Below are positions 7,015-33,692 of a stretch of 33,858 nt of DNA, piece by piece. This stretch comes from Kiloniellaceae bacterium. Lineage in GTDB: Bacteria; Pseudomonadota; Alphaproteobacteria; Kiloniellales; J153. The notes below the pieces were generated by a model. That model saw only the letters and a program-made list of their open reading frames with translations. It was not told where the DNA came from and did not search any database. Within the stretch, counting starts at the first letter, position 1; every line of letters starts with the position of its first letter. The translations under genes were made by a program, and so were the position numbers. The DNA lies in contig JAJFGP010000151.1 in NCBI GenBank assembly GCA_021776055.1, positions 1 through 33,858 on the forward strand. Direction: 5' to 3'.

Positions 7015-10000
7015 TCACATAACGGCGGTAAAGTCGTCGGTATCCAACGAACTAGGCACGATACCCTCGACAAGCGCCAATATCTCGCCCGTGGTTGCCA
7101 CCGAGATCGTACTGCTTCCCGCGCCGGACGCACCGATGGTCAGATCGGAAAATTGCAGGCCGCCGGCGAGTCCGATGAGATCGACCCCATCCTCAAAATC
7201 GGACAGGACGTCGGCTGCTGCAAGGCTGGCACCACCATCGCCGGGTGCCAGGACAAAGAGATCGCTGCCCGCGCCACCGCTTAGCGTGTCGGCCCCGGTG
7301 CCACCGCGCAAAACGTCGTCACCAGCGCCGCCGGCATACGTATCGTCAAGCGCGCCGCCGTGATAAATCGTGCTGTTGCCACTCTGCGCGGCGGACAAAG
7401 CCGTAAAGCTGGCCGCGCTGGACCTAAAGTCCAACTGGTAGTCGAAATCCTGCGTTACCCCGTGGACCGCCGATGACAGATTCTCGGGCGAACCCGTCAA
7501 ACCTTCGCCGGCCGTCAGGAAATCGATGGAATCACCGACGGCCGGCAGATAGCCGCCGATCAGGGTGAAATCAACCAGCCCGCCCTGCACATCGGCCTCA
7601 CCGGCGACCTCGATCAGATCGGACAGGCCGGCGGCCGTACCACCCAACTCCATCTCCAACGTGCCGGAGACCAAGGTTAGGTTTCCACTCAAGTGAATGG
7701 TTCCTGCTGAGAACCCCGGATCGATAAAGCCGCCATCCAGGATCGTTTCAACGACATTGAAGTTGGCGTTCGGCGTGGCGGCACCGAGGGTTCCGGTTCC
7801 CTCCACGCGGCCGTTTTGTCCGATGTAGGCCTCAAACACGTTGACCGTGCCGAACTCGCCGATGATGAGCGTGCCGGTACCGCTCGCTGCGCTCGAAATC
7901 GGCAAGCCGGTGTCCGAATCAATCTGCATGCCGATTACCAATCGGCCACCGGCATTCAAGGTGGACACGACGTTGGCCGAACTTCCCTGCACGAGCACAG
8001 TGCCGACGCCGGCAACTTGCGAGTCTAAACTGCCGCCAATGACGGTCGTCCCGTCCTCCGAGTTCTGAACCGTGGCGCCGTTCAGAATCTCCAGGCGGCC
8101 TGTGCCCGATCGGCCGACGGCGATGTAACCGGAATCGAAACCATCCAGAAAGCTGTTTACGGTTATCGACGAACCGAAGCCCGAGACCACAACCAAGCCG
8201 TCGCCGCCGGCGAGCTGTCCGACCTGGAAACCAGGCTGAAACCCTTGCCCGCCGTCAATGACCAAATCCGCGCCATCAAGCACCCGCAGCTCGCCATGGC
8301 CTTCGCGGCCAATGATGGCAGAGGCACCGCCTCCAGCCACGCGCGTGCCGCTGAGCGACATTTGTGTGACCTGGTTGCCTAAGCTTCCAAACCCATCGAT
8401 GACGACCGAGCCGTCGCCCGTGTTTAAGTTACCGACAATCAGTTCGGACGCCGAGAAGGTCCGGCCACCAACCAAGGCGAAACGGCCGACGGCGGAGTTG
8501 CCGACGGTCAGCGTGATGTTATCGAAAAGTACATCGCCCGACCGGTCGCCGACCGCAATATCGACGGTACCCGTGGCGGAGAGCGGCCCCGGCGCCCCTG
8601 TACCGCCCTGATCATTGACCGTAACGTTGACCGTTTCATCGCCAATGAATCCGCGATCCGACTGATAGGCGAGGCTGTCCAGCGCGGCGTTTACGTTCGC
8701 CAAAGTCCCGGAAAAGGACATGCCTGTATCGTCCGTCCCGTCGCCTGTTTGGAAGGTAAGGCCGCCTATTTGGCCAAGGCTCAGCGTGCCGTTACCGACA
8801 TCCAGCGTGACAACCACGCTCGGCGCATCCGGATCGGCTGCGGCAACGGCCGCGCCGCTGTCGTCGATGACATCCGCTTCAAAGCCCGATGCAGAGATTA
8901 TCGTGAACGGCAACGTGAGAGTCGGAGCATCGTTTTGCGCGACCAAGGCAACCACCGCCAGCACAGCAGCACTTGACGCCGCACCGTCGTTGACAACAAA
9001 GCGAATATTGCGCTGCGGACTGTTACCGCCGGCAGTCGGGTCTTGCGCCAAATTCTGGTATGTAACCGACCGCAGCACCTGCTGATAGTTGGCGACCGAG
9101 TCGGTTCCACTTAGGCTCAGAATACCGGTCTGCTGGTTGAAACTCGCCACAATGCTCGTTCCGCCCGTGTTCGCGGCAAGAGCTTCGAGGCCGGGGTTCG
9201 CCATGGCATCGATGGTGACCGTGGCACTGGCAAGCGTCGAACTGTCCGGATCGCTGACCAAGAGGTTGTCATCCACGATGACCGCGGCACCGCCCTCGGT
9301 GAAACTGGCACCGCTGGCGCCGTTGAGATCGACGGCCGGCGGGTCGTTGACGGGATTCACCGCAAAATCGAACGTAGCCGGCGCGCTGACGCCACCGTCA
9401 GGATCAGCGACAGTGACCGTGAAGGACGCGATGTTGGATTCACTACCGTCGTGCACAAAGCTAACGAGCCCACCGTTGACTTGTGCCTGAGTGAAGCTGT
9501 TCGCCGCCGCACCGTTCACATGAACGGCGCCATTGCTTATTCCGGTGACTGTATAAGTTAGCTGCGCCGGGTCGGTCGTTTCCGCATCGCTGGCGCTCAG
9601 GAGTGCCGCGGGAATTTGAGCGCTTGCACCCTCATCCATCTCCCCATTGCCTCCGGTAACAACCGGCGTATCGTTGACATTGGTAAAGTCGATGACCGCG
9701 GAGCCGATGTCGCTCGCCGTCCCGTCGCTGACCGTCACCGTATAACTAGGCGCCGCCTCACCGCCGTCGTGAACAAATCGCACCGCCTCGACGACAACCT
9801 GTGCTTGAGTGAACGAGGCAATGGCAACACCAGGAGTTTGCCCAAATTCGAAGTGACCGCCTTGAACGTTGCTTATCGTGAATACGAGGGCGGCATCGTC
9901 ACTGTCGAGATCGGTTGCGCTCAGATCATCGCCGGTAAGAGTGACAACGCCACCTTCGCTGACGGTCAGGCTGTTGTTGCCCAGTACAGGCGGATCATTG

Positions 10001-12612
10001 ACCGCGCCAACAGAGACATCGACCGTTGCCGTATCGGACCCGCCCTGGCCGTCGGAGATGGTGTAGGTAAAGCTATCGGCACCGCTGAAATTCGCGTTCG
10101 GTGTGTAGGTGATCGTGCCGTCGGAATTGGCAACGACACTGCCATTGGTCCCTTGTGTTACAGCCGTGACACTCAGTGTACCGCCATCGGGATCGTTGTC
10201 GTTGTCCAACACCGAGATCGTGACCGACATATCCTCGGACGTTCCCGCCTCATCGTTCGCGGCAACCGGTGGATCGTTGACCGCATCGACAGTGACGTTG
10301 ACGGTTGCCGTGTCGAAACCGCCCTGGCCGTCAGCGACCGTATACGTGAAGCTATCGGCACCGCTGAAATTCGCGTTCGGTGTGTAGGTGATCGTGCCGT
10401 CGGAATTAGCAACGACACTACCGTTGGTCCCTTGAGTCACCGCTGTGACACTTAGCGTATCGCCATCGGCATCACTGTCGTTGGCCAACACCGAGATCGT
10501 AACCGGCGTATCCTCGTCTACCGATACCTCATCGTTCGCGGCAACCGGCGGATCACCAACCGGGTTGACGGTAACGTCGACCGTTGCCGTGTCGGATCCG
10601 CCCTGGCCGTCGGAAATGGTGTACGTGAAGCTATCGGCGCCATTGAAGTCCGCATTCGGCGTGTAGGTAACCGTACCGTCCGAATTGATAGCTACGCTGC
10701 CGTTGGTCCCTTGCGTGACGGCTGAAACGCTCAGCGTATCGCCATCGGCGTCGCTGTCATTGTTCAACACCGAGAACGTGGCCGACGTATCTTCGGCCGT
10801 CGACCCTGCGTCGTTCGCGGCTACAGGTGGATCATTGACAGCGCCAACAGAAACACTGACCGTTGCCGTATCGGATCCACCTTGGCCGTCCGAGATCGTG
10901 TAGGTGAAGCTATCATCGCCGTTGAAGTTCGCATTCGGCGTGTAGGTGATCGTGCCGTCGGAGTTGACGACAACACCACCGTTGGCCCCTTGGGTTACCG
11001 CTGAAACACTCAGCGTACCGCCATCGGAATCACTGTCGTTATTCAACACCGTGATCGTGGTCGGTGTATCCTCGGTTGTTTCCGCGTTGTCATCGGCCGC
11101 CACGGGCGGGCTGTTGCCAGCGCTGATGCTAACGGTCGTGGTGGCAAACCCACCTGCGCCATCGGATACGGTGTAGGTAAAGCTATCAGCGCCAAAAAAG
11201 CCCGGCGCCGGCGTGTAGGTCAGGGTGCCGTCCGGATTGATAGCCACGCTGCCATTGCTGCCCTGCGTGACCAAAAAGATACTCAGAGCATTCCCCTCCG
11301 GATCGATGTCGTTGCCGAGGACAGCGATGACGACGGGGGCCGAACCCGCGGTGACAGCGCCATCGGCCGTGGCAATCGGGGGGCTGTTCGAATCGCCGGG
11401 CGGACTACCAGGTCCACCGGGTGCCTGGCGCGGCGGGGTCGGGGTTTGCGGGCTGGTGGTTTCCGTGACCTGGGTCGATGAAGAAGATATATCGGTATTG
11501 GTGCGCTGTTCCTCGCCGAACTCCGGCTCATCGACGCCCAGACCGCCGGATGTTACGGGGCCGGTCACCGGCGGCGCCGCTGTTTCCAAGGGCGGCTCAG
11601 CAAAGGGATCGGTATCGGCGCCTGTGTTCGGTTCGTCGCTTGCTTGCTCGAACTCGCCATCCTCGATCTCGCCGCGCCGTTCCTCGCCAAGCCGCTGCTG
11701 CGCCTGGCCGTAGATGTCATGCGCCCGCGCCACCAGGGCTTGATCAATCGCCTGTTCGCCCGGCGTCTTGATCGACTCAAAGAACGGGCCGCCGGCGGAC
11801 TGGATACGCACCAACTGATTGAGATCCGAGACATTGGTGAGAAGCGTTCCCGACAGCTTGTCAAAAAGCCCATAGATGCCAACGCCGCCCTCCGGATCCT
11901 CGCCGATGGAATAGAGCGTCGACCCATCAATGGCCGAAATTTTCGTAATCGGCACGGTGCCCCGGACGCCAATGGTCGCCACCGGCGTTTCGATACGCAT
12001 GTTGCCGGTCGGAGCCACCTGGCCGGTGACGAAGACGAATGTGCCCTGCACCAGATCGAACAGCATCGAGTTCGCCGACCCATCCGGGTCGTAGACCATG
12101 CTGCTCAGCACCATGCGGGCGCCGCCGGATAGGGAAAAGACCGTCTCGTCGATGAAGGTAAGGCCGAGCGTCGACCCCGTTCCGGTCTGCACCACATCGC
12201 CCTGGAAAACCGGGTCGCCGACCGCCAGATCGACGGCCACCCCGGCGCGGATGACCTGGGCGTTGCCGGTGAGCGTCTCCACCTGGCCGATGGCCTCCGC
12301 GACGGGGGCACCGCCGGCCTGCGCGTACAGCAGCCCTGGGACTCGGGGGCCGACCAACGCCGCCACCAGGTCCGGCGACATCACCGCTCCGTCGGGCGAG
12401 AGAAGGGGCGGCGGAACCTCGGCGGTAAAATAGCCGCTGATAATCTGTGTCGTGCCGTCGCTGCCGGTCAGCAGCAGATCGTCGCCGGTCTGGCTGAATT
12501 CGGCGGTGAACAGCAGGTGTGCATCGGATACCGTGACGGCCCCGTCGCCAGCCTCCACCGGCGACAGCACAATTCCGGCCGCGGACGTATCAGGTCCCGC
12601 GCGGCCTACCAC
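7015..12612 (-). CDS. Giant RTX-type surface/adhesin protein with FecR and tandem Ig-like repeats
   Basis: This 1865-residue acidic protein has no N-terminal signal and ends with RTX calcium-binding repeats (GGAGDDVLRGGTGADTL near 1750-1790) and a short C terminus ending DDFTAVM, so type I secretion is expected. Domains in order: an N-terminal region; a FecR domain (about 108-220, starting GQVETLTGNAQVIR); a Pro/Ser/Thr-rich linker (about 330-405); five tandem 93-residue Ig/cadherin-like repeats (about 407-872, each with DPPVAANDE-, TYTPNANF- and DSFTYTISDGQGG-like blocks); two CSPG-like repeats (about 874-1089); two further cadherin-like modules (about 1090-1350); a glycine-rich beta-helix region (about 1350-1650) resembling autotransporter passengers; and the RTX tail. 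The start is a GTG at 12612, with an in-frame TAG two codons before it. No type I exporter genes are in this window. It is probably a cell-surface adhesin or matrix protein. Confidence 0.9.
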   Translation of the reverse strand: MVGRAGPDTSAAGIVLSPVEAGDGAVTVSDAHLLFTAEFSQTGDDLLLTGSDGTTQIISGYFTAEVPPPLLSPDGAVMSPDLVAALVGPRVPGLLYAQAGGAPVAEAIGQVETLTGNAQVIRAGVAVDLAVGDPVFQGDVVQTGTGSTLGLTFIDETVFSLSGGARMVLSSMVYDPDGSANSMLFDLVQGTFVFVTGQVAPTGNMRIETPVATIGVRGTVPITKISAIDGSTLYSIGEDPEGGVGIYGLFDKLSGTLLTNVSDLNQLVRIQSAGGPFFESIKTPGEQAIDQALVARAHDIYGQAQQRLGEERRGEIEDGEFEQASDEPNTGADTDPFAEPPLETAAPPVTGPVTSGGLGVDEPEFGEEQRTNTDISSSSTQVTETTSPQTPTPPRQAPGGPGSPPGDSNSPPIATADGAVTAGSAPVVIAVLGNDIDPEGNALSIFLVTQGSNGSVAINPDGTLTYTPAPGFFGADSFTYTVSDGAGGFATTTVSISAGNSPPVAADDNAETTEDTPTTITVLNNDSDSDGGTLSVSAVTQGANGGVVVNSDGTITYTPNANFNGDDSFTYTISDGQGGSDTATVSVSVGAVNDPPVAANDAGSTAEDTSATFSVLNNDSDADGDTLSVSAVTQGTNGSVAINSDGTVTYTPNADFNGADSFTYTISDGQGGSDTATVDVTVNPVGDPPVAANDEVSVDEDTPVTISVLANDSDADGDTLSVTAVTQGTNGSVVANSDGTITYTPNANFSGADSFTYTVADGQGGFDTATVNVTVDAVNDPPVAANDEAGTSEDMSVTISVLDNDNDPDGGTLSVTAVTQGTNGSVVANSDGTITYTPNANFSGADSFTYTISDGQGGSDTATVDVSVGAVNDPPVLGNNSLTVSEGGVVTLTGDDLSATDLDSDDAALVFTISNVQGGHFEFGQTPGVAIASFTQAQVVVEAVRFVHDGGEAAPSYTVTVSDGTASDIGSAVIDFTNVNDTPVVTGGNGEMDEGASAQIPAALLSASDAETTDPAQLTYTVTGISNGAVHVNGAAANSFTQAQVNGGLVSFVHDGSESNIASFTVTVADPDGGVSAPATFDFAVNPVNDPPAVDLNGASGASFTEGGAAVIVDDNLLVSDPDSSTLASATVTIDAMANPGLEALAANTGGTSIVASFNQQTGILSLSGTDSVANYQQVLRSVTYQNLAQDPTAGGNSPQRNIRFVVNDGAASSAAVLAVVALVAQNDAPTLTLPFTIISASGFEADVIDDSGAAVAAADPDAPSVVVTLDVGNGTLSLGQIGGLTFQTGDGTDDTGMSFSGTLANVNAALDSLAYQSDRGFIGDETVNVTVNDQGGTGAPGPLSATGTVDIAVGDRSGDVLFDNITLTVGNSAVGRFALVGGRTFSASELIVGNLNTGDGSVVIDGFGSLGNQVTQMSLSGTRVAGGGASAIIGREGHGELRVLDGADLVIDGGQGFQPGFQVGQLAGGDGLVVVSGFGSSITVNSFLDGFDSGYIAVGRSGTGRLEILNGATVQNSEDGTTVIGGSLDSQVAGVGTVLVQGSSANVVSTLNAGGRLVIGMQIDSDTGLPISSAASGTGTLIIGEFGTVNVFEAYIGQNGRVEGTGTLGAATPNANFNVVETILDGGFIDPGFSAGTIHLSGNLTLVSGTLEMELGGTAAGLSDLIEVAGEADVQGGLVDFTLIGGYLPAVGDSIDFLTAGEGLTGSPENLSSAVHGVTQDFDYQLDFRSSAASFTALSAAQSGNSTIYHGGALDDTYAGGAGDDVLRGGTGADTLSGGAGSDLFVLAPGDGGASLAAADVLSDFEDGVDLIGLAGGLQFSDLTIGASGAGSSTISVATTGEILALVEGIVPSSLDTDDFTAVM
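9995..11395 (-). repeat. Five tandem 279-bp coding repeats in the RTX gene
   Basis: Equivalent bases recur every 279 bp exactly (for example at about 10255, 10534 and 10813, then 11092), giving 93-residue Ig/cadherin-like units. Units 2 to 5 are strongly alike at the DNA level; unit 1 (nearest the FecR side) is more diverged. The arrangement permits change in copy number by recombination. Confidence 0.85.
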
Positions 12613-20253: not shown

Positions 20254-23200
20254 ATGCTGAAGCAAAGTTTGTCTGGTACTGACGAGGGCCCGATCAGCGC
20301 GGCTCAAAAGAAGCTGGTGCAGGATAGCTTCGCCGCCGTCGCCCCGAACGCGGAGGCCGCGGCCGGGTTGTTCTACGGCCACCTCTTCGAGTTGGATCCC
20401 TCGCTCAAAGCCCTCTTCAAAGGCGACATGAAAGAGCAGGGCCGCAAGCTAATGGCCATGCTCAAGATCGCCGTGGCCGGCCTCGACGATTTGGGCAAGC
20501 TGGTTCCCGCGGTTCAGGACCTCGGCCGCCGCCATACTGCCTACGGAGTCAAAGACGAGCATTACAACACCGTCGCTGCGGCCCTTCTCTGGACTCTCGA
20601 GCAGGGCCTCAAGGACGGCTTCACCCCCGACGTCAAAGCCGCCTGGACCGCCGTCTACGGCGTCCTCGCCGAGACCATGAAATCCGCACCCGCAGCCCAA
20701 CCGGCACCTGCACCCGCAGCCCAGCCCGCACCGGAGCACACCATGCAAAACGATACCACAGGCAATAACATTTACCGCCAGATGGTCGAGGACATGCCCA
20801 TCAACGTGATGGTCTGCGATCTCGAGAATTTCTGCATCACCTATGCCAACAAGGCCTCCTTCGCCGCCGTCAAGCAGCTCGAAGAAGTGGTCGATATCAA
20901 GGCCGACAGTCTCGTCGGCACCTGTATCGATGTCTTCCACAAGAACCCCGCGCACCAGCGCCAACTTCTCGCCGACCCCAAGAACCTGCCGCACAACGCG
21001 CTGATCCAGGTCGGCCCCGAGACCCTCGATCTGCTGGTCACCGCCGTCTACGACGACAGCGGCAAGTATACCTCGGCCATGCTCACCTGGAGTGTTGTCA
21101 CCCAAAAGGTCAAGACCGATGCCCAGGCCGCTCAGCTGACCCAGATGGTCGAGGGCATGCCCATCGGCGTAATGATGTGCGAGACCGAGAATCTCGAGAT
21201 CAACTACATGAACAAGTTCTCGACCGAGACTCTAAAGACCCTGCAGGAGCACTTGCCGGTCAAGGCCGACGACATGATCGGCCAATGCATCGATGTCTTC
21301 CACAAAGACCCGGCACACCAGCGCAAGATCCTCTCCGATCCGGCGAACCTGCCGCACAAGGCACTCATTCAGGTCGGTCCCGAGACCCTCGATCTGCTGG
21401 TCACCGCCATCCACGACAAGGACGGCAGCTACATGGGCCCGATGCTCACCTGGAGTGTCGTGACCGCCAAGGTCAAGGCCGATGCCCAGGCCGCCCAGCT
21501 GACCCAGATGGTCGAGGGCATGCCCATCGGCGTGATGATGTGCAGCACCGAGAACTTCGAAGTGAACTACATGAACAAGTTCTCGACCGAGACCTTGAAG
21601 ACCCTGCAGGAGCACCTGCCGGTCAAGGTCGATGATATGATCGGCCAATGCATCGATGTCTTCCACAAGGACCCGGCGCACCAGCGCAAGATCCTCTCCG
21701 ATGCGAAGAACCTGCCGCACAAGGCCCTGATCAGCGTGGGTCCCGAGACCCTCGATCTGCTGGTCACCGCCATCCACGACAAGGAAGGCAACTACATGGG
21801 CCCGATGCTCACCTGGAGTGTCGTGACCGCCAAGGTCAAGGCCGATGCCCAGGCCGCCCAGCTGACCCAGATGGTCGAGGGTATGCCCATCGGCGTGATG
21901 ATGTGCGAGACCGAGAACTTCGAGATGAACTACATGAACAAGTTCTCGACCGAGACTCTAAAGACCTTGCAGGAGCATCTGCCGATCAAGGTCGACGACA
22001 TGATCGGCCAGTCCATCGATGTCTTCCACCAAGTGCCTTCGCATCAGCGCAACATCCTCTCCGATGCCAAGAACCTGCCGCATAAGGCGCTCATCCAGGT
22101 CGGCCCGGAGACCCTCGATCTGCTGGTCACCGCGATCCACGATCCGAGCGGGAAATACATGGGGCCCATGCTCACCTGGAGCGTGGTCACCGCCAAGGTC
22201 AAGGCCGATGCGGAAAGCGCCCGGTTGGTGCAGATGATCGAAGAGATGCCGATCAATATCATGACCTTAGACCCCAAGGACTTCACCATCAATTATGTCA
22301 ACAAGACTAGCCTCAACACGCTCAAGCCGCTAGAGCATCTGTTGCCTGTCAAACTTGACCAGCTGCTTGGCACGAACCTGGACATCTTCCACAAGGTGCC
22401 TTCGCACCAGCGCAAGATTCTCTCCGACCCGGCGAACCTGCCACACCAGGCCAAGATCAAGCTCGGCGATGAAACTCTCGACCTAAGGGTTTCTGCCATC
22501 AACGGACAGGACGGCGAATACATAGGCCCGATGCTCTCTTGGTCGGTCATCACCGGTCAAGTGCGCATGGCCGATGACTTCGAGACCAATGTGAAAGGCG
22601 TCGTCGAAATTGTCTCATCCTCCGCGACCGAGATGCAGGCAACCGCGCAAAGTTTGTCGGCCACGTCGGAGGAAACCAACCGTCAGGCAACCTCGGTCGC
22701 CGCGGCCGCGGAGGAGGCCTCGACCAACGTGCAAACGGTGGCCTCGGCTGCTGAAGAGCTTGCTAGTTCCATCTCCGAGATTGGTCGCCAGGTGGAAGAG
22801 TCGAGCCGCATCGCCGGGCAAGCAGCGACCCAGGCAAAAGATACCAATTCCCAAGTGGAAAGCCTGGCAGCGGCGGCCAACAAGATCGGCGAGGTGGTCG
22901 AGTTGATCAGCGACATCGCCAGCCAGACCAACTTGCTGGCGCTGAATGCCACCATCGAGGCGGCGCGTGCCGGCGAGGCCGGTAAGGGCTTTGCCGTGGT
23001 CGCCAGCGAAGTGAAAAGCTTGGCAACGCAAACAGCCAAGGCCACCGAGGAGATCGCCGGCCAGATCACCGCGATTCAGTCGGCGACCACCGATGCAGTC
23101 AAGGCGATCAAGGAGATCAGCACGACCATCGAATCGATCAACGATATCGCCGGCAACGTTGCTTCGGCGGTTGAGGAACAAGGTGCGGCGACCAAGGAAA

Positions 23201-23394
23201 TCGCCCACAGCGTTCAGCAAGCCTCGGCCGGTACGACGGAGGTTTCGAGCAACATCAGTGGCGTTACGCAAGCTGCTAGCGAGTCCGGCACCTCCGCGAC
23301 GCAGGTGCTCGAGGCAGCTTCCGAACTGGCCAAGCAGTCGGAGAACTTGCGTGGCGAGGTCGACAAATTCCTGGTCCAGGTCCGGGCTAGCTAA
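20254..23394 (+). CDS. Soluble globin-PAS(x5)-MCP chemoreceptor
   Basis: This 1046-residue protein lacks any membrane segment. Residues about 15-145 form a flavohaemoglobin-type globin: Tyr41 (B10), Gln62 (E7), proximal His94 in GRRHTAYGV and Tyr104. A Pro/Ala-rich linker (about 147-165) leads to five 121-residue PAS-like repeats (about 168-772), each with MPIxVM, DVFHKxPxHQR-like, and [10 protein letters not shown]-like blocks. The C terminus is a methyl-accepting signalling domain with the tip sequence [19 protein letters not shown]. It predicts a cytoplasmic oxygen, NO or redox receptor controlling CheA or a related kinase. ATG 20254 follows a weak ACGGA site. A receiver gene and an HPt gene follow on the same strand. 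Typical HemAT sensors use another globin class, so this FHb-like fusion is uncommon. Confidence 0.93.
20755..22569 (+). repeat. Five tandem 363-bp PAS-coding repeats
   Basis: Equivalent bases recur every 363 bp exactly (21118, 21481, 21844, 22207). The middle three units (21118-22206) are nearly identical DNA, while the first (from about 20755) and last (to 22569) are more diverged. This is the pattern expected from recent internal duplication by unequal recombination. Confidence 0.9.
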
Positions 23395-27024: not shown

Positions 27025-28029
27025 TTAGCGAGTCTCGACCGCAAAGGGCCGAGTCAGCAAGGCTGCGATGGTATCGTCGATGCTTGCGCCCTGTTCAAGG
27101 ATGGCGGCAATACCGGCGGAGATGGGAACCTCCACGCGGTGTTGTGCCGCCAGGCCGACCACCGCGGCGGCAGAGTGCAAGCCCTCGGCAACCGTGCGCC
27201 GGCCGGCCAAGGCTTGGTCGAGCGTTTGCCCGGCGCCCAGGGCTTGGCCAAGAGCGAAGTTGCGGGACTGGATGTTGGTGCAGGTCAGGGTCAAGTCGCC
27301 TAAGCCGGAGAGCCCCATGAGAGTCTTGCGCCGCCCGCCCAAGGCCCGGCCCAGGCGCGCGATCTCGGCCAGGCCGCGGGTGATCAGGGCGGCACCGGCG
27401 TTAGCACCCAGCTTGCGCCCGGCGACGATGCCGCAGGCGACGGCGATGACGTTCTTCACGGCGCCGCCAATTTGCGCCCCGACCGGATCATCCGAAAGAT
27501 ACGGCCGAAAGGTCCGACTGCCCAGGGCGGTCACCAAGGCGGTGCCCAACGCCGCATCGGTCGTGGCCAAGGTCACCGCCGCCGGCAAGCCACGCGCCAC
27601 CTCGCCGGCAAAGGTCGGGCCGGAGAGAACGGCGACCGGGTGTTGGGGCAGGACCTCGGCTAGAACCTCGGACATAAGCGCGCCGCTGCCTCGCTCGATG
27701 CCCTTGGCGCAGATGACGAGCGGCCGGTCGCGAGGTAGCACGGCGGCGAAGCACCCGGCGATGGCCCGCAGGTGCTGCGCTGGTACGGCAAGCAGCACGG
27801 CATCCGCTGTTGCCACCTCGGCACCCTCCGTGGTGGCCCGGATCGCCGGATCAAGGGGCACGCCCGGCAGGTAATCGGGATTTTCGTGTTGTGCATTTAG
27901 GCGTGCCGCTAGCGCCGCGTCACGGGCCCAGATCAGCGCCTCGCGGCCGGCCCGGTGCGCGGCGATGGCCAGCGCGGTGCCCCAGGCGCCGGCGCCGATG
28001 ACGGCCACTCGCTGTAGGGGCTTGTTCAT
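27025..28029 (-). CDS. gpsA: Glycerol-3-phosphate dehydrogenase [NAD(P)+]
   Basis: This 334-residue cytoplasmic enzyme reduces dihydroxyacetone phosphate to sn-glycerol 3-phosphate for phospholipid synthesis. It has the Rossmann motif [12 protein letters not shown], the [11 protein letters not shown] block, [16 protein letters not shown] with the catalytic Lys, and [19 protein letters not shown] near the C terminus. Length is normal for GpsA. Its start overlaps the tsaD stop by four bases (ATGA), so translation is coupled, and yciI follows 24 bp later. Confidence 0.96.
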
Positions 28030-29075
28030 GCTGATACAGGCCCGCCAACCTCGCCCAGCGGCCAGCGCGGCCGGGGGGCGAAGTCCAGCGGGTCACGCAA
28101 GTCGAGGCGCCGGCGCTCGATCCCGGCCCAGGCGATCATCGCGGCGTTGTCGGTACACAAGGCTGGGGGCGGTGCGATCAGATGTGTCCCGCCTGCCGCC
28201 GCCACCTCGGACAATCGGGCGCGCAGGGTTTGATTGGCGGCAACGCCGCCGGCGACGACCAGGGGTCCGGACCGGCCGCAGCGCGTCTGAAAGACGGTCA
28301 GGGCGCGCGCACATCGGTCGGCGAGTACGTCGGCGACCGCAGCGTGAAACGAGGCGGCCAGATCGCGCGCGGTTTGCGACTCTCCTCTCAACTCGTCCGG
28401 GCCGATGTCGACGATGCGGTGGCGCACCGCCGTCTTTAGGCCGGAAAAGGAAAAGTCCAAGGTATCCCGCCCCATCATGGGCCTCGGCAGATCGAAACGC
28501 GCCGGATCGCCGCCTTGTGCCAGGCGCTCCAGCGCCGGCCCGCCGGGATAGCCAAGGCCAAGCATCTTCGCGCACTTGTCGAAGCATTCGCCGACCGCAT
28601 CGTCGATGGTCGTCCCAAGGCGGTGATAGCGGCCGATGCCCTCGACCGCCACTAACTGGCAATGGCCGCCGGAAACGAGCAGCAGGAGATAGGGGAACTC
28701 AGCATCGCTGGTCAGGCGCACGGTCAGCGCGTGCCCCTCCAGGTGGTTGATGGCCAGGAAGGGCAGGCTACGGGCCGCGGCGATGGCCTTGCCGGTCATC
28801 ACGCCGACAAACACGCCGCCGATCAGGCCCGGCCCGGCAGTAGCGGCGACGGCGTCGATGTCATCGAAATCGAGACCGGCTTCGGCCATGGCGCGGGTCA
28901 CCAGCGTATCGAGGTGGTCCAGGTGGCTGCGCGCGGCGATTTCGGGCACCACACCGCCATAGGGCCGGTGCTCGTCCAGTTGGGCGAGGACCAGATTGGC
29001 GCGGATGTGCCGCTCGCTGTCGACCAGCGCCACGGCCGTGTCATCGCAGCTTGTTTCGATGCCGAGGACAATCAT
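28026..29075 (-). CDS. tsaD: tRNA N6-adenosine threonylcarbamoyltransferase
   Basis: This 349-residue ASKHA-fold protein transfers threonylcarbamoyl to A37 of ANN-decoding tRNAs, working with TsaB/TsaE/TsaC. It shows [19 protein letters not shown], the metal-binding HLEGHALT (His-x3-His), [24 protein letters not shown] and the late [10 protein letters not shown] block. ATG 29075 is the family start; the open frame to 29162 would add residues encoded by a C-rich repeat region and is rejected. It diverges from hemC across about 128 bp and is followed by gpsA with a 4-bp overlap. Confidence 0.97.
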
Positions 29076-29130: not shown

Positions 29131-29163
29131 TTGCCCCCCAACTTGCCCCCCAACTTGCCCACC
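29131..29163. repeat. 12-bp tandem C-rich repeat in tsaD/hemC intergenic region
   Basis: TTGCCCCCCAAC occurs twice head to tail (29131-29142, 29143-29154), followed by a third partial copy TTGCCCACC. On the complement this gives two GGGGGG runs separated by six bases, a possible G-rich structure upstream of tsaD. It lies between the divergent tsaD and hemC starts, so length change could affect both promoters. Confidence 0.6.
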
Positions 29164-29203: not shown

Positions 29204-30157
29204 ATGAGTGCGCAGGCACCTTTTCGCCTCGGCACCCGGGGCAGCCCGTTGGCGCTGGCCCAGGCGCGCGAGTTGCGTGCCCGCCTTGCCGCCGCGCATC
29301 CGGCGCTTGCCGCCGAGGATGCGGTCGAGATCGTGGTGATCAAGACCACCGGCGACCAGGTGCAGGATCGCGCTTTGTCGGAGATCGGCGGCAAGGGCCT
29401 ATTCACAAAAGAAATCGAAGAGGCGCTTTTGGATAAGCGCATAGATGCCGCCGTGCATTCCATGAAGGATGTGCCCACCTGGCTGCCGGATGGGCTGGTC
29501 ATCGCCGCCGTTTTGCCGCGCGAGGATCCGCGCGATGTGTTACTCGTCCCGGGTGCTGTCAGCCTGGCGGCGTTGCCATCGGGCGCGGTCGTCGGTACGG
29601 GGTCGTTGCGGCGGCAGGCGCAGGTCCTGCTGGTGCGCCCGGATCTCAAGGTTGTCCCCATGCGCGGCAATGTCGGAACGCGGATGCGCAAGCTGCGGGC
29701 GGGCGAGGTCGATGCGACGTTGCTGGCGCTGGCCGGATTGCGCCGGCTGGATTTGGCAAAAGAGGTCGCGGCGGAGTCCGCCGTTCTCGGCGCCGAAGAG
29801 ATGTTGCCGGCCGCCGCGCAAGGTGCCATCGGAATCGAAATCCGGGCGAGCGATGCACGTACGCACGATGTGATCGCGGCCCTTGACGATGCGCCATCGG
29901 CGGTGTGTGTGGAGGCCGAGCGTGCCTGTCTAGAGGTTCTCGACGGTTCGTGCCGGACGCCGATAGCCGCCTTGGCGGAGGTCGAGGGCGATGTGCTGCG
30001 CCTACGCGCCCTGGTGGCCATGCCGGACGGCAGTCGTGCCCACCGGGCGGAGCAGCGTGGCGCCGCCGCCGATGCGATCGCCCTGGGCCGGGCCGTTGGG
30101 GCTGAGTTGCGCGCCGCCGCCGGCTCGGCGTTCTTCGCCGCGCTGGCCGATATCTGA
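29204..30157 (+). CDS. hemC: Porphobilinogen deaminase (hydroxymethylbilane synthase)
   Basis: This 317-residue cytoplasmic enzyme joins four porphobilinogens into hydroxymethylbilane. It has FRLGTRGSPLALAQ at the N terminus, the KEIEEALLDKRIDAAVHSMKD segment split around residues 75-95, PREDPRDVLL, and the C-terminal DGSCRTPIAAL loop whose Cys attaches the dipyrromethane cofactor. ATG 29204 is chosen because the family starts just before the FRLGTRGSPL block; an upstream ATG at 29168 adds 12 atypical residues. It is followed after 32 bp by the hemD fusion gene, whose product uses its product. Confidence 0.97.
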   Translation: MSAQAPFRLGTRGSPLALAQARELRARLAAAHPALAAEDAVEIVVIKTTGDQVQDRALSEIGGKGLFTKEIEEALLDKRIDAAVHSMKDVPTWLPDGLVIAAVLPREDPRDVLLVPGAVSLAALPSGAVVGTGSLRRQAQVLLVRPDLKVVPMRGNVGTRMRKLRAGEVDATLLALAGLRRLDLAKEVAAESAVLGAEEMLPAAAQGAIGIEIRASDARTHDVIAALDDAPSAVCVEAERACLEVLDGSCRTPIAALAEVEGDVLRLRALVAMPDGSRAHRAEQRGAAADAIALGRAVGAELRAAAGSAFFAALADI

Positions 30158-30189: not shown

Positions 30190-32271
30190 ATGCGCGTACT
30201 TGTGACCCGCCCCTTGGAAGATGTCGGTCCGCTGGTCGCGGCGCTGAAAACGCGCGGCCATGAGGCCGTCATCGAGCCGATGCTCAGCATCGAACGCCGG
30301 GCCGACGTATCGTTGCCGTTACCCCTGGATGGGGTACAGGCGCTGTTGTTTACCAGCGCCAATGGGGTGCGCGCGTTCGCCGATCTGGCGCCCGAGCGCG
30401 ACCTGCCCGTTTTCGCCGTCGGCGATGCCAGTGCTACGGCCGCGCGCGAGGCTGGGTTTACGGCAGTGGAGAGCGCCGGCGGCGATGTGACAGATTTGGC
30501 GCGCCTGGTGCGCGACCACCTCGATCCGGATCACGGCGCCCTCTTTCATCCGGCGGCAAGCCAGTTGGCCGGCGATCTGCAGGGCGCGCTTGAGGATGCC
30601 GGCTTTACCTTGCGTCGGGCGGCGCTCTATGAGGCGCAACCGGCGGTCGATCTGTCCTCGGCGTTGCGCCGAGGGTTGGCGGCGGGCGATCTCGATGTGG
30701 CGGTCTTTTTCTCACCCCGTACCGCCCGCACGTTCGTGACTTTGATTGAGCGCGCGGGCCTGAATGCCGCATGTGCTCGGTTGCAAGTCGTATGTCTGAG
30801 CGAGGCGGTTGCGGCGCGGTTGCAGCCGTTGACTTGGGCGCGGGTCTGGGTGGCCGCGCGGCCCGAGCAGGACGCCGTGCTCGCCCGTCTGGATGAGGTT
30901 GCCGCCGAGGTGGACGCCAGCATACCCGACTCGCCGCCGCATCCGTCGGATGGTCAGTTGGACGCGCACGGTGTGGTCGCCAGCTTCGGCGGCATACGGC
31001 CGATGGCGAACAAGCTGGGGGTTGCGGTTAGCACGGTGCAGGGGTGGCGCGAGCGTGGCTCGATTCCGGCCGGGCGTCATGCGCAAATCCGGGCGGCTGC
31101 CAAAAAGCACGGCGTCGAACTCGATCCACCGGTGCAAGCAAGTGCTCCCGCTGTTGCCCCTACCGTATCGGTGGAACCACGGCCAGAGCCGCAGGCCCGC
31201 CCGGCCGAGGCCGCAGCCGCGATACCTGCAAGCACGCCGTCACCTGTATTCCGTTTGGCGGGCGCCTTCGCCTTGGGCGTTATCGCCGTGCTGGTTGGTG
31301 GCGGCTTGGCCATCGTCGGCCGTGACGTGTGGCTGGCCGAACCGCCAGCCGTTGTCACTGACTCTCCGAGCGCCGCCGACGCGGCAAATTTGGAAACACG
31401 GCTGGCGGCCATGGAAAGCGAGGTGCGCGACCAGGCGGCGCGCGCGGGAACCGGAGAGTCCGAGGCTGCACAAGCGGCCACGGCGCGGCTCGAAGAAGAA
31501 TTGTCCGGCATACAGAACCGCCTAGATGGCTTGGCCGAGGATGTAGCGGGCGCGGCCGATCCGTCGGGTGTCGATGCGGCGGCGCAAAGCGCGGCCTTGC
31601 AGGAGATGCAGATGCAAGTTCAGGCGCTGGGCGGACGAATCGATACCTTCGATGACAGATTGGCCGACCTGCAAAGCCAACTCGGGGAAGTCGCCGTATC
31701 GAGTGTTGGCAGCGACACACAAATCGCCGGCGATGCGGCGTTGACCTTGGCCGTATTGCAATTGCGCGATGCGGTGCGCGGCTCGGCCCCGTTCGCGGCG
31801 GAGTTGCAGACCGTTCTTGATTTGGCGACGTCGCCGGCATTTGCCGGTGGCTCGGATTTCATCGATGCTCTCACCCCTCTCAAGCCGTATGCCGAGATGG
31901 GTGCACCGGCATTGGCGAAGTTGAAATCCGATTTTTCGGCGGTGGCGCGGCGCATCGTCACGCACGGGCAAGGTGCGGACGACGAAGACTGGCTGGCTGG
32001 CGTTAAACGCCGGGTCTCCGGTCTCATATCCGTGCGGCCCATCGGTTCGGTCGAGGGCGAGAGCCCGGCGGCTGTCGTGGCCCGCGCCGAAGTGGCGCTT
32101 GCCGCCGACGATTTAGCCGGCGCGGTGCGCGAGTTGTCGGTCTTGCAAGGCCCCGCCGTGGCGGCGGCCGGCGACTGGCAGACGGGTGCCGAGGCGCGGC
32201 TGGCGGTGCAGACGGCGCTCAGCCAATTGGGCCGCGGCCTGATTGCCCGGCGTGGTTCGGCTAGCGAATAG
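30190..32271 (+). CDS. hemD: Uroporphyrinogen-III synthase fused to HTH and mitofilin (Mic60)-like protein
   Basis: This 693-residue protein contains a HemD domain (about 1-240; MRVLVTRPLEDVGPLV, LLFTSANGVRAF and VFFSPRTARTF are typical), which cyclises hydroxymethylbilane to uroporphyrinogen III. A helix-turn-helix-like segment follows (about 260-312, with MANKLGVAVSTVQGWRERG), then an Ala/Pro-rich linker, one membrane helix (about 353-381), a coiled coil (about 395-500) and a mitofilin-like C-terminal region (to 690). Membrane topology predicts HemD and HTH in the cytoplasm and the coiled coil in the periplasm. Mitofilin-like genes beside hemD are known in alphaproteobacteria; here both lie in one uninterrupted frame. 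A GGGAGG precedes the ATG at 30190. hemY follows 17 bp later. Confidence 0.9.
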   Translation: MRVLVTRPLEDVGPLVAALKTRGHEAVIEPMLSIERRADVSLPLPLDGVQALLFTSANGVRAFADLAPERDLPVFAVGDASATAAREAGFTAVESAGGDVTDLARLVRDHLDPDHGALFHPAASQLAGDLQGALEDAGFTLRRAALYEAQPAVDLSSALRRGLAAGDLDVAVFFSPRTARTFVTLIERAGLNAACARLQVVCLSEAVAARLQPLTWARVWVAARPEQDAVLARLDEVAAEVDASIPDSPPHPSDGQLDAHGVVASFGGIRPMANKLGVAVSTVQGWRERGSIPAGRHAQIRAAAKKHGVELDPPVQASAPAVAPTVSVEPRPEPQARPAEAAAAIPASTPSPVFRLAGAFALGVIAVLVGGGLAIVGRDVWLAEPPAVVTDSPSAADAANLETRLAAMESEVRDQAARAGTGESEAAQAATARLEEELSGIQNRLDGLAEDVAGAADPSGVDAAAQSAALQEMQMQVQALGGRIDTFDDRLADLQSQLGEVAVSSVGSDTQIAGDAALTLAVLQLRDAVRGSAPFAAELQTVLDLATSPAFAGGSDFIDALTPLKPYAEMGAPALAKLKSDFSAVARRIVTHGQGADDEDWLAGVKRRVSGLISVRPIGSVEGESPAAVVARAEVALAADDLAGAVRELSVLQGPAVAAAGDWQTGAEARLAVQTALSQLGRGLIARRGSASE

Positions 32272-32288: not shown

Positions 32289-33692
32289 ATGATTCGCATT
32301 GCCCTCTTCTGCCTCAAGGTCGGGGTTGTCGTTGCGCTCGCTTTTTGGCTGGCGGAACGGCCGGGGGATGTTTCCGTCGAGTGGCTGGGCTACCGGATGG
32401 ATACCACCGTCGGCGTGCTTCTGTTGGCGGTTGCGGTGGTCGCCGGGCTGGCGGCGCTTGCCTATCGGTTTTGGCGCTTTCTCTACCGCTCGCCGCGTGA
32501 TCTTGGCCGCCGGGTTCAGACCGGGCGGCGCCGGCGTGGCTACAAGGCGTTGACCCAGGGCATGGTGGCGGTCGCTGCCGGCGAGCCGGACGAAGCGGCG
32601 CGCTGGTCGCGCAAGGCCGATGCTCTGCTCGACGAGCCGCCGCTGACCATGCTGCTCTCCGCCCAGGCCGCCCAGCTCAACGGTGACGAGGCGGCGGCCA
32701 AACGCTATTTCAATGCCATGCTGGAGAACCCGGAGACCCGGTTTCTGGGCCTGCGCGGTCTGCTCAACCAGGCCTTGCGCGCCGGCGATCAGACCGCGGC
32801 CCTCGAATACGTGCGCCAGGCGCATGGCATGCGCCCGCGCACGCCGTGGGTGCTGACCTCGCTTTTCGATCTCAGCGAACGGCACGGCGATCTGGATACG
32901 GCCGAGCGCGCTTTGCGCGATGCGACCCGGATCAAGGCTTTGCCGGCACCGGAAGCAACCCGCCACCGCGCCGTATTACTGCTCGAGCGAGCAATGGCGG
33001 CGCGCGCCGCCGAGGATCCCGGCGCCGTCAAGCAGGCGCACGAGGCGCGGCGCCTGGCCCCTGATTTGGCGGCCGCCGGTATCTTCGAGGCCGAGCTTCT
33101 GATCGCCGCCGGCAAGGGCCGCAAGGCGGCGCGAGTTTTGGAGGAGACCTGGGCCCAGGCGCCGCACCCGGATATGGTGCGGCTCTATCTTCAGGCATTG
33201 CCGGCCGATGACGACCTCGGCCGTTTGAAGCGCTTGGGCAAGCTGACGGCCGGCCGCACCGAGCACCCGGAAAGCCATCTGGCCCTGGCCCGCGCCGCTC
33301 TGGACGCCAAGCTGTGGGGCGAGGCGCGCCGGCATCTAATCGTTGCCGCTGGCCCCGAGGGTTTGGATGGCGCGCCGAGCGAGTCGGTCTGTCGCCTGAT
33401 GGCGGCGCTGGAAGAGGCCGAGCACGACAATATGGCCGCCGCGCGTGTCTGGCTCGACCGTGCCGCCACGGCCGCCGCCGATCCCGGCTGGGTGTGCCGC
33501 ATCTGCGGGGCGGTGGCCGAAGCCTGGAGCGCCCGGTGCGGCGCCTGCGAGGCCTTCGACGGCCTGCGCTGGCAGCAGCCGCCTCGCGTCGTCCCGGCGG
33601 TTATCGGTAGCAAGACGGAGATTGCCGGCGAACTCGCGCCGCCTGTGACCACCACCGGTGCCAACCTACCGGCGATTCAGAACGACGCCTGA
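32289..33692 (+). CDS. hemY: HemY-family TPR membrane protein with zinc-ribbon-like tail
   Basis: This 467-residue protein has two N-terminal membrane helices (about 4-20 and 40-62) and TPR-like helical repeats (about 95-400). Its C terminus holds the two CxxC motifs CRIC and CGAC (about 400-430), followed by FDGLRW. It is the proteobacterial 'heme biosynthesis protein HemY', not the protoporphyrinogen oxidase of the same name. Its role in haem synthesis is inferred mainly from the hemCD context. The paired-Cys tail resembles the rubredoxin-like domain of LapB/YciM and suggests metal binding. It begins 17 bp after the hemD fusion stop and is the last gene of that operon. Confidence 0.9.
   Translation: MIRIALFCLKVGVVVALAFWLAERPGDVSVEWLGYRMDTTVGVLLLAVAVVAGLAALAYRFWRFLYRSPRDLGRRVQTGRRRRGYKALTQGMVAVAAGEPDEAARWSRKADALLDEPPLTMLLSAQAAQLNGDEAAAKRYFNAMLENPETRFLGLRGLLNQALRAGDQTAALEYVRQAHGMRPRTPWVLTSLFDLSERHGDLDTAERALRDATRIKALPAPEATRHRAVLLLERAMAARAAEDPGAVKQAHEARRLAPDLAAAGIFEAELLIAAGKGRKAARVLEETWAQAPHPDMVRLYLQALPADDDLGRLKRLGKLTAGRTEHPESHLALARAALDAKLWGEARRHLIVAAGPEGLDGAPSESVCRLMAALEEAEHDNMAAARVWLDRAATAAADPGWVCRICGAVAEAWSARCGACEAFDGLRWQQPPRVVPAVIGSKTEIAGELAPPVTTTGANLPAIQNDA

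Follow-up and report, generated by a model that had tools for sequence, protein, structure and literature searches.

The window (the whole stretch of DNA analysed, 33,858 nt) carries a group of hem genes toward its right-hand end (Table 1). At its core is a single gene, with no internal stop between its ATG and the stop codon at 32269-32271, in which a uroporphyrinogen-III synthase (HemD) domain, a Cro-like helix-turn-helix (HTH), a predicted transmembrane (TM) helix, a predicted coiled coil and a mitofilin (Mic60) domain follow one another in 693 codons. Its neighbours are hemC, for the preceding pathway step, and a gene for a HemY-like membrane protein, the order of the alphaproteobacterial hemC-hemD-mic60-hemY operon (PMC7641849). 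The 128 bases between tsaD and hemC include 2.5 copies of a perfect 12-base repeat, TTGCCCCCCAAC.

Table 1. Coordinates of the hem locus, of the parts of the fused gene and of other features in the window.
Feature	Positions	Strand	Remarks
Cadherin-like repeat ORF	7015-12612	-	1865 aa
Chemoreceptor	20254-23394		1046 aa
tsaD	28026-29075	-	divergent neighbour of hemC
12-base repeat	29131-29160		tsaD-hemC intergenic region
hemC (hydroxymethylbilane synthase)	29207-30157	+	upstream of fusion; start codon about 29204-29207
HemD-HTH-TM-coiled coil-mitofilin gene	30190-32271	+	693 aa
HemD (uroporphyrinogen-III synthase) domain	30190-30909	+	residues 1-240; sole HEM4 match in the genome
Short HemD-HTH linker	30910-30963	+	no ATG; in-frame GTG 30910, TTG 30958
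Cro-like HTH (NCBIfam NF046037, carph-isopro)	30964-31125	+	model match 30973-31125
Ala/Pro-rich linker	31126-31239	+	disordered
Predicted TM helix	31255-31332	+	hydrophobic stretch; AlphaFold2 helix at residues 359-381, low confidence
Predicted coiled coil	31366-31701	+	residues 393-504, long helices (AlphaFold2)
Mitofilin domain	31714-32265	+	residues 509-692; Pfam match 517-678
HemY_N/TPR membrane protein (alphaproteobacterial HemY-like)	32289-33692	+	17 bases downstream of fusion

Two other genes in the window have conspicuous repeats. In the chemoreceptor, a globin at the N-terminus is joined to about four tandem PAS-like units (363 bp each and nearly identical, their DNA matching at 82-87%) and to an MCP signalling domain; by its sequence it is a globin sensor whose PAS array was amplified recently. 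In the 1865-aa ORF, cadherin-like repeats recur many times almost unchanged, and a GGxGxD-type stretch lies in the C-terminal part; by eye it looks like a large, repeat-rich protein of the cell surface or a secreted one.

The HemD part of the fused gene matches HEM4 (PF02602) over residues 15-231 and profile positions 3-230 of 231 (E 4.8e-42; 144 bits, cut-off 27.5). The HTH, which Pfam matches weakly as phage Cro, is recognized by the NCBIfam carph-isopro model (residues 262-312; E 2.4e-18; 66 bits, cut-off 38), and the C-terminal domain by Pfam Mitofilin, PF09731 (28.8 bits, cut-off 27.4). Searches of the PDB with a profile of relatives gave the solved HemD 3mw8 for the first part (1.8e-7), the phage-type Cro 3bd1 for the HTH (0.0016), and MIC60-MIC19 7pv1 (3.5e-6 for the full profile and 9.4e-12 when only its mitofilin part was used). 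The sequence-only reading had placed HemD, HTH, transmembrane and mitofilin elements in one uninterrupted 693-residue frame; domain profiles and open frame bear this out.

An AlphaFold2 model built on 28 natural fused relatives predicts HemD and the HTH each at a pLDDT of about 95, and a helical domain at residues 509-692 that is mostly confident but weaker at about 591-620. The Mic60 order of TM helix, coiled coil and mitofilin domain is thus present in the window protein, with low confidence for the TM helix. A PDB fold search with the full-length model, which in practice probed the HemD part only, found Pseudomonas aeruginosa HemD 4es6 to be closest (Z 23.6, rmsd 2.9, 235 residues aligned).

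There is no second HEM4 match in the genome, which is 99.8% complete, and URO-D, the next pathway enzyme, is present in one copy; haem synthesis in this organism therefore needs the fusion protein. That the only HEM4 match lies between hemC and the hemY-like gene suggests that its HemD domain is enzymatically active.

The joint between the two halves does not result from an assembly error or a lost stop codon, possibilities which the sequence-only reading had raised and which are ruled out by the same frame in a genus mate and many relatives. In the genus mate (G001, a Kiloniellaceae MAG; locus L002, also L117) the frame runs on an independent contig from mid-HemD to the end, and HemD, linker and HTH can be aligned with those of the window codon by codon, the 26 linker codons without a gap. 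Between the two, dN is 0.28 and dS 0.79 in the linker (dN/dS about 0.35), as for a sequence under purifying selection, and dN is 0.05 in the HTH. Every other member of the window's family that could be tested (G003, G006, G007, and G008) is fused, and so are whole other families and, among named strains, for example Inquilinus limosus DSM 16000 and Rhodovibrio sodomensis DSM 9895.

Among 289 alphaproteobacterial species sampled, stop-to-stop reading shows HemD and Mic60 to be joined in at least 41. Mitofilin was detected in 134 of the 289, and the fused ones make up about 30% of the roughly 140 in which Mic60 was found by any model. The HTH is absent from 33 of the one-frame genomes and present in eight (G000, G012, G135, G143, G161, G204, G255, and G266). 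That the mitofilin homolog is normally a separate gene, as first proposed, holds for the majority of these species but is overstated given this proportion, and the fusion cannot be called exceptional: the window is a member of a widespread architecture, with fusions in 29 families over all the loci examined. Both states are seen, with whole families fused and others split. A tree of 111 loci requires at least 19 changes between the fused and split states (fusion and fission counted alike), at least seven of them forced by well-supported branches; the 19 are a lower bound because the HTH-less loci in the tree were picked for being fused, and frequencies in the tree are likewise not representative. 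The hem neighbourhood of mic60, possibly including fusions, is reportedly mentioned by Munoz-Gomez (2015, 2017, 2023), Huynen (2016), and Tarasenko (2017), and priority for the HemD-Mic60 fusion cannot be claimed. What is added here is its frequency and turnover, an internal start kept in relatives and lost in the window, and a strongly conserved HTH.

This HTH had been taken as part of what makes the fusion special. It is also found at the N-terminus of stand-alone Mic60s in split relatives, and so travels with Mic60 rather than being a part of HemD; it belongs ancestrally to this Mic60 subgroup, while most alphaproteobacterial Mic60s do not have it. Over 116 distinct Mic60 HTHs, the stretch from FGGIRPMA through TVQGWK to an IPxxR motif is nearly invariant, exposed polar and basic positions included: Gly268, Arg270, Thr282, Gln284, Trp286, Arg289, and Arg296 are each conserved at 98-100%, and position 287 is basic in about 99%. 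The HTH is more conserved than either HemD or the mitofilin domain, and a conserved partner, either DNA or a protein, is therefore probable.

Carph-isopro HTHs also occur N-terminally on unrelated enzymes at six loci in other alphaproteobacteria (L093, L096, L098, L102, L104, and L105), among them a YjeF-type hydrate dehydratase, CarA, a zinc alcohol dehydrogenase, and SerA; those on YjeF and SerA have the TTVQGW recognition helix in common with the Mic60 HTH. The domain is a small mobile module grafted onto housekeeping enzymes. At three split loci (L110, L111, and L114), hemD is followed by a carph-isopro HTH protein in which no mitofilin domain was detected, either a Mic60 that has diverged or some other membrane protein.

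How might such a protein function? HemD converts the unstable product of HemC, hydroxymethylbilane, to uroporphyrinogen III; left alone, hydroxymethylbilane closes its ring spontaneously and gives isomer I, which is of no use. Mic60 spans the membrane with its N-terminus inside and its C-terminus outside, forms oligomers and bends membranes, so that a HemD fused to its N-terminus would be held at the cytoplasmic face where Mic60 assembles. We think it probable, if well short of certain, that this is a true gene fusion in which the cell's only uroporphyrinogen-III synthase has become the cytoplasmic head of Mic60; to judge from the sequence, a membrane-tethered HemD appears to be the best-supported mechanism. 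The fusion would insert through its TM helix with HemD and the HTH in the cytoplasm and the mitofilin domain in the periplasm, where the latter would oligomerise and shape the membrane. HemD would then be concentrated at Mic60 assembly sites, near the membrane-bound later steps and the operon's HemY-like protein; tethering might favour hand-over of hydroxymethylbilane from HemC, and haem supply could be coupled to respiratory membranes. Recurrent gene fusion is a classical sign of a functional link, and the recurrence of hemD-mic60 fusions therefore argues for a connection, physical or functional, between tetrapyrrole synthesis and the Mic60 membrane organiser; the sequence-only reading had suggested a physical one. 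Counting against a tethered HemD are the Pfam mitofilin score of the window protein, which is barely above its cut-off; proteolytic processing, which would undo the tether; and the possibility that repeated fusion of adjacent genes on the same strand can be near-neutral.

The last two points together make up the strongest of the alternatives, which we nonetheless consider unlikely: stop-codon loss between co-transcribed neighbours would be close to neutral, and the joined HemD and Mic60 would act independently or be separated by proteolysis. The genes are adjacent and co-directional, and in several split relatives they lie in the same frame with one stop between them, so that one substitution fuses them; fused and split arrangements are also found inside single genera. 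However, fusion has been kept through whole families, including every testable member of the window's own, and its recurrence in 29 families looks higher than for a random operon junction. Less probable still is a gene with two products, in which ribosomes reading through make the fusion, and a second ribosome entry in the linker yields a stand-alone HTH-Mic60, leaving HemD tethering partial. Distinct fused frames with the HTH number 40; 36 of them contain an in-frame ATG in the HemD-HTH linker, and two more a GTG at the same place. An ATG also precedes the TM helix in 24 of 33 HTH-less fused frames. In 35 of the 36, the Met is followed by Ala, Ser, Thr, Pro, Gly, or Asp (e.g., MAEQD, MSDET, MTDDK), resembling the starts of separate Mic60s, with their small or acidic residue after Met. 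ATGs are 2.9 times as dense in this linker as in the one after the HTH, and Shine-Dalgarno pairing is stronger at the linker ATGs (-7.0 kcal/mol) than at the remaining in-frame ATGs of these genes (-3.9; Wilcoxon p = 3e-6), but exceeds that of synonymous shuffles only modestly across the relatives (combined p = 0.008). Since a Mic60 start codon and a Shine-Dalgarno-like stretch survive in frame, most HTH-bearing fused genes probably yield both the fusion and a free Mic60, and in these relatives only a fraction of the Mic60 produced may carry a tethered HemD. Of the 40 frames, this leaves those of the window and its genus mate, which have no ATG in the linker. The next ATG in the window, at 31003, is inside the HTH; the pairing upstream of its linker GTG is no better than with synonymous random codons (p = 0.65); and this GTG and the linker TTG are GTC and TTT in the genus mate, so the GTG is not a conserved Mic60 start. 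Some free Mic60 may come from either codon, but the window's genus appears to have lost the conserved internal start and to be committed to the fusion. On the tethered-HemD reading, most HTH-bearing relatives would make both tethered and free Mic60, and the window's genus the fusion only.

More doubtful again is a role as a one-component regulator anchored in the membrane, with the HTH binding DNA (e.g., at the hem operon) and reporting the state of the membrane or of haem, or else tying DNA to the membrane. The HTH surface is the most conserved part of the protein, its likeness is to phage Cro, and several enzymes of other alphaproteobacteria (CarA, SerA, YjeF, and alcohol dehydrogenase) carry related HTHs. 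On the other hand, an operator search of 63 distinct tsaD-hemC upstream regions found no shared dyad, and the only words there above shuffles were start codons and GC-rich words; most alphaproteobacterial Mic60s, moreover, do without the domain. HTH folds also act as protein-binding domains, as in RodZ, and this too counts against a DNA-binding regulator.

Compared with known systems, the window protein is closest to the alphaproteobacterial Mic60 (COG4223/mitofilin) of the same operon, with which it shares gene order, TM helix, coiled coil, and mitofilin domain; it differs from the usual form in having HemD fused in frame and an N-terminal carph-isopro HTH. For alphaproteobacterial Mic60s other than this one, membrane remodelling and a role in intracytoplasmic membranes have been reported (reviewed in PMC12136173). 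Its whole architecture is found in one frame in Inquilinus limosus, Rhodovibrio sodomensis, Ferruginivarius sediminum, Aestuariispira insulae, and others; these keep the in-frame linker ATG for Mic60, which the window's genus does not have. HemX (PF04375) of other Pseudomonadota occupies the same operon position, a membrane protein with TM helix and coiled coil directly after hemD. Fusions of HemD and HemX exist in betaproteobacteria; none was found in the loci checked here. The HemX profile compares with the mitofilin domain at 22.6% probability, and a search of the window's genome for PF04375 at E 0.001 found nothing. In yeast and in animal cells, the haem metabolon is a binding partner of MICOS, and losing MICOS impairs ferrochelatase (reviewed in PMC9163361). 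There, as in the fusion, a Mic60-type organiser is physically linked to haem synthesis, although the mitochondrial link is to the terminal-step enzyme and by protein-protein contact, while that in the window is to HemD and by gene fusion.

Least likely of all the readings considered here, and frankly speculative, is that hemD-mic60 acts as a switchable gene with two starts, evolved repeatedly, through which the share of HemD anchored by Mic60 is set (all of it in the window's genus), with the near-invariant HTH tying the same spot to DNA. If this were true, tetrapyrrole synthesis, membrane folding, and the nucleoid would meet in one protein. More generally, the recurrence of the fusion in free-living relatives of mitochondria, and its maintenance in whole families, suggest that the link between Mic60 and haem synthesis is older than mitochondria. 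Obligate fusions, two-start genes, and separate genes together provide natural genetic material with which this link can be tested in culturable bacteria.
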